Part shown: positions 45,303-46,745 of the stretch, piece after piece
How the letters are laid out: each line of letters opens with the position of its first letter
Numbering within the stretch: the first letter of the stretch is position 1
From: Oscillospiraceae bacterium
Lineage (GTDB): Bacteria; Bacillota; Clostridia; UBA1381
Assembly (NCBI GenBank): GCA_015068965.1
Contig: SVJN01000002.1
Location: forward strand, 1 to 47,025
Length of the DNA stretch: 47,025 bases
Direction of reading: 5' to 3'
The notes under the pieces: generated by a model
Database searches by the model: none
The model's input: the letters and a program-made list of their open reading frames with translations, nothing else
Told to the model about the DNA's origin: nothing
Position numbers and translations under genes: made by a program

Positions 45303-45761
45303 TTACATTACAAAATTCAAGCGGATATAAACCGCTTCCTTTGGACTTACCTCGACTGTTGTTCCGTCAAAGGATAAAATCGCTTTTTTATCCCGGTAAT
45401 CTTCTAAAATCGCAACAAACTCCTTTTTTCCGTCTATTGCTTTGTAGAGCTTGACCTCGACCTCTCTTCCGATATAGTAGGAAAACTCACGGTCGGTTTT
45501 TAGCTTCCGGTCTGCACCGGGAGAGGAAACCTCCAGGCAATATGCCTCCGAAATCAAATCCGCCTCATCCAGAAGCACCTCTGCCGCCCTGCTGAATGCT
45601 TCGCAGTCCTGCAATCCGACACCTCCGGGCTTGTCGATATAGATTCTTAAGAAACGGTCACCGTTTTCTTTTTTGTACTCTACATCCACCACATAAACAC
45701 CCTGCTGCTCCGATAATGCCTGTGTCATTTCAAGCACGGCTGTTTCAATTGTATTTGCCAT
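45303..45761 (-). CDS. rimP: Ribosome maturation factor RimP
   Basis: RimP is needed for late 30S subunit assembly. The 152-residue protein has VDVEYKKENGDRFLRIYIDKP and YCLEVSSPGADRKLK, the core RimP motifs, and a C-terminal SH3-like domain. GAAAGGAGAAGG is the ribosome site. It is the first gene of the operon rimP-nusA-ylxR-ylxQ-infB-rbfA-nrnA-trmR-ecsC-trhP. Confidence 0.97.
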   Translation of the reverse strand: MANTIETAVLEMTQALSEQQGVYVVDVEYKKENGDRFLRIYIDKPGGVGLQDCEAFSRAAEVLLDEADLISEAYCLEVSSPGADRKLKTDREFSYYIGREVEVKLYKAIDGKKEFVAILEDYRDKKAILSFDGTTVEVSPKEAVYIRLNFVM

Positions 45762-45800
45762 ACCTTCTCCTTTCTCCGGTCAGTTCTTTTTTTGAAATAT

Positions 45801-45831
45801 GAAAGAGTGGGTTTTTTTTACCCACTCTTTC
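45801..45831 (-). promoter_or_regulatory. Leader hairpin of the rimP operon
   Basis: GAAAGAGTGGGT pairs with ACCCACTCTTTC around a poly-A (minus strand) loop, about 40 bp upstream of rimP and about 20 bp after the -10 box. It has no following T-run on the minus strand, so it is more likely an mRNA 5' stabiliser or autoregulatory site than a terminator. Confidence 0.6.
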
Positions 45832-45855
45832 GCAATTCCTATCTTAACATGGTAT

Positions 45856-45884
45856 AGTATACCACATTCTGTTTGATATTTCAA
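45856..45884 (-). promoter_or_regulatory. Sigma-A promoter of the rimP operon
   Basis: On the minus strand TTGAAA, a 17-bp spacer and TATACT lie about 95 bp upstream of rimP. Confidence 0.82.
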
Positions 45885-45964
45885 GCCTTTTTTGAAAATT
45901 TTTTAATTTGTATGTGTAATTCTTTTGTTTTTTTATATTTTTCTTTTGTTTTTTATATTTAAAC

Positions 45965-45993
45965 TTGAATAATCCGTTGGTACATGTTATAAT
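45965..45993 (+). promoter_or_regulatory. Sigma-A promoter of the structured RNA locus
   Basis: TTGAAT, a 17-bp spacer and TATAAT lie just before the outer stem at 45997. The divergent rimP promoter is about 80 bp away. Confidence 0.82.
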
Positions 45994-45996
45994 ATA

Positions 45997-46209
45997 GTCA
46001 CCACAATTTATTACTTTAATTAAATATGCCAGATTATACCTATTCTTATTATGTATAACAATGAGTACAAGGTGTACGCTATGTAAAAAGCGTATGCTTA
46101 TTCCGTTATCCTTGTACTCTTGTGCATATGGTAATAAGTTGTGGTGACTTTTCGGAATAGCCTCTGCGTTTTTTGGTGCGTGGCTCTGCGAAGAGTCACG
46201 CACTTTTTT
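45997..46209 (+). ncRNA. Structured non-coding RNA, possibly 6S-like or another known class
   Basis: An outer stem of 18 bp pairs GTCACCACAATTTATTAC (45997-46014) with GTAATAAGTTGTGGTGAC (46131-46148), with one G-U pair. Within it ATATGC pairs with GCATAT, TTATAC with GTATAA, and GAGTACAAGG (46063) with CCTTGTACTC (46110), which is capped by GTACGC/GCGTAT. TATTCCG (46099) can also pair with CGGAATA (46153) as a pseudoknot or switch. A strong promoter and a strong terminator frame it and there is no open frame. A long closing stem with an open centre recalls 6S RNA, but the pseudoknot does not. The true start may be near 46000. Confidence 0.72.
46176..46209 (+). terminator. Terminator of the structured RNA
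   Basis: GTGCGTGGCTCT pairs with AGAGTCACGCAC around a GCGA tetraloop, followed by TTTTTT. The SLOG gene's ribosome site begins 5 bp later. Confidence 0.93.
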
Positions 46210-46226
46210 AATTTAGAGGTATGATG

Positions 46227-46745
46227 ATGACAGAAGAGAAAAAAACCTGCTGTTTCTTTGGGCATAGAAAAATAGCAGACACAGAGCAGTTACGGGAAAA
46301 GCTTTTTAAAATAATTGAGGGACTTATTATCCATAATCATGTAAATGTATTCCTTTTTGGTAGCCGTAGCGACTTCGACAAGTTGTGCCTTGCAGTTGTT
46401 GCAGAACTAAAAGATAAATACCCACATATACGGCGTGTTTATGTTCGTGCAGAATTTCAGTATATTGATGACGACTACAAGGCATACCTTTTACAAAGCT
46501 ATGACGATACATATTATCCGGAACAGATTTCAGGTTCAGGGCGTGCAGTTTATGTAGAACGTAATTACATTATGATTGACCGTTCTGATATCTGTGTTGT
46601 ATATTATGATGAAGATTATCAACCCCCAAAGCGAAAAAATAGCCGACGTGATATAATACCATATCAACCAAAAAGCGGAACAAAAATAGCATATGAATAT
46701 GCACAGAAAAAGAAAAAAGTAATCATACAAACTGCCGATTTTTGA
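46227..46745 (+). CDS. SLOG-family (DUF1273/YpsA-like) nucleotide-binding protein
   Basis: The 172-residue protein begins with CCFFGHRK, the start of SLOG/DUF1273-type Rossmann-like proteins, and has FLFGSRSDFDKLC, a glycine-rich loop, and DRSDICVVYYDED. These domains bind nucleotide-derived ligands; some act in signalling or defence, but many are of unknown function. The third of three tandem ATG codons (46227) is preferred for spacing from AGAGG. Since a terminator lies just upstream with no separate promoter, it may depend on read-through from the RNA locus. Confidence 0.85.
   Translation: MTEEKKTCCFFGHRKIADTEQLREKLFKIIEGLIIHNHVNVFLFGSRSDFDKLCLAVVAELKDKYPHIRRVYVRAEFQYIDDDYKAYLLQSYDDTYYPEQISGSGRAVYVERNYIMIDRSDICVVYYDEDYQPPKRKNSRRDIIPYQPKSGTKIAYEYAQKKKKVIIQTADF

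Follow-up and report, generated by a model that had tools for sequence, protein, structure and literature searches.

Our analysis indicates that the RNA element at positions 45965–46209 of the 47,025-nucleotide stretch of Oscillospiraceae DNA studied here (the window) is probably the 5′ leader of a SLOG gene, and one of a dispersed set of cis-acting, riboswitch-like transcription attenuators. Four overlapping, mutually exclusive helices covary across the family, namely a–b (P3), b–c (a pseudoknot), c–d (an antiterminator) and d–e (the terminator), so that strands b, c and d each hold two conserved partners that are incompatible with one another; these incompatible partners, as read from the aligned sequences, are the main evidence for a putative switch. 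Among the readings offered by the initial annotation, control of the SLOG gene by the RNA is now the best supported. That annotation had missed that the window RNA belongs to a dispersed multi-copy family, that its key feature is four mutually exclusive helices as opposed to a single fold plus a pseudoknot, and that SLOG is one among many types of downstream gene, points that an unaided reading of the sequence could not reveal.

Structure of the probable leader

The features of the element and its gene are as follows.

45965–45993, + strand: sigma-A-type promoter (consensus scan; spacing from −10 to P1 fixed across the family), with −35 TTGAAT at 45965–45970, a 17-nt spacer with a TG extension, and −10 TATAAT at 45988–45993
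45997–46014, + strand: 5′ strand of closing stem P1 (fold; family P1 pairs covary, 99% of cells paired)
46024–46029, + strand: 5′ strand of the lower P2 helix, pairing with 46124–46129 (fold)
46034–46058, + strand: side hairpin, 46034–46039 with 46053–46058 (fold; not general in the family)
46063–46072, + strand: P2 5′ strand, pairing with 46110–46119 (fold)
46074–46080, + strand: strand a (GUACGCU), the P3 5′ strand (a–b covariation)
46085–46105, + strand: strand b, AAAAAGCGUAU (the P3 3′ strand) plus loop UUAUUCCG (a–b and b–c covariation)
46110–46119, + strand: P2 3′ strand (fold)
46131–46148, + strand: P1 3′ strand (fold; covariation)
46153–46174, + strand: strand c, CGGAAUAGCCUCUGCGUUUUUU (b–c and c–d covariation)
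46175–46187, + strand: strand d, GGUGCGUGGCUCU, the terminator 5′ strand (alternative partner c)
46188–46191, + strand: GCGA loop of the terminator
46192–46209, + strand: strand e, AGAGUCACGCACU, plus the terminator U-run (pairs with d)
46221–46745, + strand: open reading frame of a YpsA-type SLOG gene (Pfam PF06908, E = 1.9e-6)

The predicted fold of the window RNA has an energy of −84.5 kcal/mol, compared with −50.3 ± 4.1 kcal/mol for 200 shuffles, none of which was as stable (z = −8.3). This agrees with the earlier description of a stable structured RNA that carries a promoter and a terminator of its own, and every element named there is present: the TTGAAT-17-TATAAT promoter; the 18-bp outer stem said to enclose about 150 nt (P1, 18 pairs including one G–U, spanning 152 nt); at least three inner helices, which in the fold are the lower P2, the side hairpin, P2 and P3 (46074–46080/46089–46095); and the GNRA-capped terminator at 46175–46204, with 13 bp, the GCGA loop and the U-run. 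The 7-bp pseudoknot that had been proposed between TATTCCG (46099–46105) and CGGAATA (46153–46159) is real and covaries, and it is longer than first described, because the A-run and P3 3′ strand (46085–46094) also pair with the conserved TGCGTTTTTT (46165–46174). As had also been claimed, the window RNA contains no convincing open reading frame, the 119-aa minus-strand frame being mechanical; the short frame MPDYTYSYYV (start near 46026) was rejected for want of a Shine-Dalgarno site.

A single promoter match, taken alone, means little, because the region gave 10 matches in the consensus scan and shuffles gave 6.7; the family-wide spacing is described below. Transcription is expected to start near 46000, with the first base of P1 as aligned in the family. 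The SLOG start is likely at 46227, 17 nt past the U-run and in line with the family, because AGAGG lies at 46215–46219.

The RNA lies near a rimP–nusA–infB operon, which, like the records that contain the closest SLOG relatives, points to a clostridial lineage. A perfect hairpin of roughly 13 bp (45804–45836), with a homopolymer loop and no U-run on either side, separates the likely rimP promoter (45884–45856, minus strand) from the start of rimP (45761); it may be a feature of the rimP–nusA leader. Elsewhere in the window, a Gut-1 RNA (RF01706, 30320–30390) directly follows a four-gene tRNA cluster.

A dispersed RNA family

A BLASTN search of 70 genomes from the taxonomic family recovered dispersed relatives of the RNA in differing gene contexts, 23 of which were aligned to build a covariance model (R1) whose structure comprises P1, P3 and the terminator. 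The model detects six copies in the source genome. At order level it matches 78 of 95 genomes, as many as 26 times in a single genome, and at class level 78 of 291, spread across many families; in the class scan, per-genome copy counts are bounded by the number of candidates scored. Many of the genomes used throughout are incomplete drafts. In a sample of 249 genomes from the phylum the source genome was the sole carrier, with no match in the 248 others. A phage or plasmid origin was considered and rejected: viral contigs held no exact match to the pattern, and phage and plasmid collections held no DNA similar to the one member used as query.

The family is apparently undescribed to date. We found no description of it in the papers searched, though supplementary motif lists may include it. 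Against Rfam release 15, the window matched no family at the gathering score and gave chance-level matches only up to E = 10, so that the check set out in the initial annotation returned nothing convincing at gathering or relaxed thresholds; 20 relatives likewise had no match at the gathering threshold, and a relaxed scan of two relatives gave sub-threshold, unconvincing matches only.

The family layout runs from a −10 element through 6 nt to P1 (GCUACA...UGUGUAGC, of varying stem length) and a variable P2, which carries P3, formed by strand a (GUACGCU) and strand b (AAAAAGCGUAC), with a 3′ bulge that extends strand b and in one common form reads ACUCUUGUUUCGUCAUAC. On the 3′ side of P1 come GCAAC, strand c (GAAAC..GAGUCAC UGCGUUUUUU), strand d (GUGCGUGGCUC), a loop, and strand e (GAGCCACGCAC-UUUUUU). 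The −10 element matches at least four of six consensus positions in 114 of 115 copies (background 65%), with a −35 element at 16–18 nt as well in 77% (background 28%), and it ends exactly 6 nt from the first P1 base in 69 of the 115. The most conserved part of the family is the switching platform, much of P1–P2 varying in length and sequence, and column conservation also reveals conserved nucleotides outside the mapped pairs that flank P1 and P2. An apparent conserved internal loop between P1 and P2, UAAUA opposite GUAUGA, was discarded, since conservation fails on its 3′ side and an alignment effect in AT-rich sequence may account for the AAUA on the 5′ side.

Covariation of the alternative helices

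For each of 85 non-redundant copies we compared the duplex energy of matched strands with that of permuted partners. The four helices gave z scores of −12.6 (a–b), −15.3 (b–c), −12.5 (c–d) and −16.4 (d–e), and the control pairs were null (b–d −0.1, b–e −1.2, c–e −1.5). Relatedness among sequences can look like covariation. We therefore ran a second test in which each strand was exchanged solely with its counterparts from that genome (62 copies in 22 genomes), a design that takes out common ancestry; the scores remained at −5.0, −6.0, −5.5 and −6.2 for a–b, b–c, c–d and d–e, with 0 of 5000 permutations reaching each, and all five control pairs were null.

Column-wise measures give a consistent picture for three of the helices. 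The P1, P3 and terminator columns are 96% paired, with two-sided changes in 19 of 23 pairs, counts that come from an alignment fitted to that structure; the c–d columns, which lie outside the fitted structure, show two-sided changes in 7 of 7 pairs. In the b–c helix the A–U/C–G core is 90–95% paired; its columns, in the present alignment, show fewer two-sided changes, and two of five column-wise measures (pairs with two-sided changes, further pair types) do not exceed shuffles, a shortfall perhaps due to alignment register. In predicted folds, c–d forms in 82 of 84 family transcripts cut before e, and among full-length folds c–d appears in 47 of 84 and the terminator in 37 of 84, a near balance in which pseudoknots are ignored.

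Genes downstream of the RNA

An open reading frame with a Shine-Dalgarno site follows on the same strand within 130 nt in 80 of 111 copies (about 72%), compared with 17% at random positions and 5 of 111 on the upstream divergent side, and in 58 of the 80 it begins 10–39 nt past the U-run. The products include surface proteins (BspA-type LRR, SLH, copper-amine-oxidase-N, and CHAP with lectin, dockerin or FG-GAP repeats) as well as YpsA/YAcAr SLOG proteins, DUF4177, Band-7, an ABC transporter and small unknowns. A small protein of about 77–86 aa recurs 16–18 nt behind the RNA in several genomes (loci L112, L137, L162, L023 and L136), with endings such as SDFEAIEEIVCIFEKYNID; the L137 protein has no Pfam match.

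In about 28% of copies no obvious frame preceded by a Shine-Dalgarno site begins in the next 130 nt, and some copies look free-standing (L126, L127, L029, L063, L135, and L120 in the source genome). Tandem copies also occur, and among those examined most units have their own promoter. Locus L148 has two RNA copies: the first precedes the opening codons of a SLOG gene that breaks off, after which come a second promoter–RNA unit and an intact SLOG gene, an arrangement that looks like duplication of the leader plus the gene start.

We considered and rejected an obligatory partnership between the RNA and SLOG. Genes of other kinds follow most copies, and SLOG homologues from other genomes occur without the RNA; thus SLOG and the RNA are not tied together. 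By eye, the place upstream of several RNA-less SLOG relatives (L035–L043) seems to be taken instead by a divergent gene that looks like a regulator.

Proposed mechanism

That these helices act as a switch in vivo, and which way control runs, we infer from the sequences. We propose that the five strands would act as a ladder of mutually exclusive pairs on a transcript that begins at the base of P1. By order of synthesis, P3 would form first, and c would then compete between b and d, with the free part of b beside P3 capturing c first and then displacing a. In the OFF state b–c and d–e would be paired and RNA polymerase would stop ahead of the gene; in the ON state a–b, as P3 atop P1–P2, would stand together with the c–d antiterminator and the gene would be read. 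The b–c pseudoknot, followed by U6, has the look of a possible first terminator, and c–d would take one strand from it and one from d–e. An effector, whether a small molecule or an RNA-binding protein, that stabilised or blocked P3 or the b–c contact would set the choice.

For the window copy, the duplexes of strand b are −9.5 kcal/mol with a and −18.8 kcal/mol with c. Its c–d duplex is weak (−9.4 kcal/mol) relative to d–e (−23.2 kcal/mol), so that, unaided, it is expected to be OFF for the most part. In the model, b–c alongside the long P1–P2 stem with a linker of about 8 nt would need a bend or a partial opening.

Comparison with known regulatory leaders

The ladder resembles trp-type attenuators in its ordered, overlapping strands that form exclusive pairs (1–2, 2–3, 3–4), the last of which is the terminator, and the covariation of neighbouring but not of non-neighbouring strands fits that plan. 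In contrast, trp-type attenuators have a leader peptide over strand 1, whereas Shine-Dalgarno-preceded short frames occur in 19 of 122 family RNAs against 30 in shuffles and the family has no conserved start codon (best ATG column 27%). Strand b is, moreover, held by strand a within a hairpin that tops a long stem, and five strands make four alternating helices. T-box leaders share the cis-acting choice between antiterminator and terminator in leaders of Bacillota, but the family has no T-box core (0 of 122 RNAs), no Rfam match and no amino-acid gene theme.

ZTP, preQ1-I and fluoride riboswitches place a pseudoknot domain ahead of a terminator and then a gene, and exchange strands among pseudoknot, antiterminator and terminator. 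The family shares this order and this strand exchange. Like riboswitches, its copies stand in cis upstream of a gene far more often than random positions do, a likeness of position only, and they carry an expression platform with alternative folds, in which c–d and d–e covary and are near-balanced. Contrasting with those three classes, the family has no Rfam match, its P1–P2 region is variable, conservation is greatest in the switching platform, and the many copies in one genome stand ahead of mixed genes.

Within the proposed attenuator, the leader may be a metabolite-sensing riboswitch, with the P1 base, the GCAAC linker, a CAUAC bulge and P3 forming the pocket, a possibility we take seriously while judging it somewhat short of probable. 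The conserved nucleotides beyond the mapped pairs, the pseudoknot with its antiterminator/terminator layout, and the wide and varied regulon would all suit such a sensor; conservation that peaks in the switching platform and not in an aptamer-like core, and a gene set with no enzyme or transporter theme pointing to a ligand, argue against it. Riboswitches for c-di-GMP are leaders of surface-protein genes in Clostridia, as the family is, but the family differs in matching no Rfam model, and a GGDEF match is missing from 24 of the 78 carriers, among them eight genomes that are 90% complete or more; if GGDEF is truly absent there, c-di-GMP is unlikely as the general signal.

Alternatively, an RNA-binding protein on P3 or the bulge might set the choice, which we consider rather unlikely. 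The long stems, together with sequence conservation in P3 and at the base of P1, are consistent with protein binding, and so wide a range of surface and accessory genes might be under a global regulator; against the version that invokes LoaP-type processive antitermination, none of 95 genomes has a LoaP over the curated cut-off.

Beyond these two forms of the attenuator stands an improbable reading in which the RNA is autonomous and acts in trans, its downstream genes being bystanders reached by leaky read-through. The element's own promoter and terminator, the copies without a downstream frame and the self-promoted tandem units are what such an RNA would show. Yet 72% of copies precede a frame with a Shine-Dalgarno site, mostly at 10–39 nt, a free-standing small RNA would not need the covarying c–d antiterminator, and copies within one genome match themselves best, as expected for cis action. 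Still less credible, to the point of being very improbable, is a DNA-level repeat, MITE-like or a recombination site, whose palindromes merely look RNA-like: the copies are dispersed, numerous and built of imperfect inverted repeats, but those of the same genome differ in their stems while all four helices are matched inside each copy, promoter spacing is fixed and the downstream genes are strand-consistent. That the element is 6S RNA or another known class is scarcely conceivable, since 6S RNA (RF00013) shares the long closing stem with an open centre, a length of about 190–210 nt and its own promoter but not the downstream gene or the terminator–antiterminator ladder, no convincing Rfam match was found, 45750–46350 gives no 6S match up to E = 10 while the sole 6S match of the source genome lies on contig C133, and the raiA-type alternative that had been suggested alongside 6S fares no better, the raiA model matching neither the window up to E = 10 nor the relatives at the gathering threshold.

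Significance

Returning to the cis-acting attenuator, we tentatively put forward, as a plausible but not yet probable extension, that the family constitutes a previously undescribed class of effector-sensing leader or riboswitch that co-ordinates surface, SLOG and accessory genes across several families of Clostridia, with one antiterminator that draws on two tandem terminators (b–c with U6, and d–e). It would be a widespread, multi-copy family of regulatory RNA missing from Rfam release 15, and its switching mechanism would be unusually legible, with covariation and within-genome controls for each of four alternative helices. The effector, once found, would reveal the signal for on/off control of surface-protein and SLOG genes in many Clostridia.
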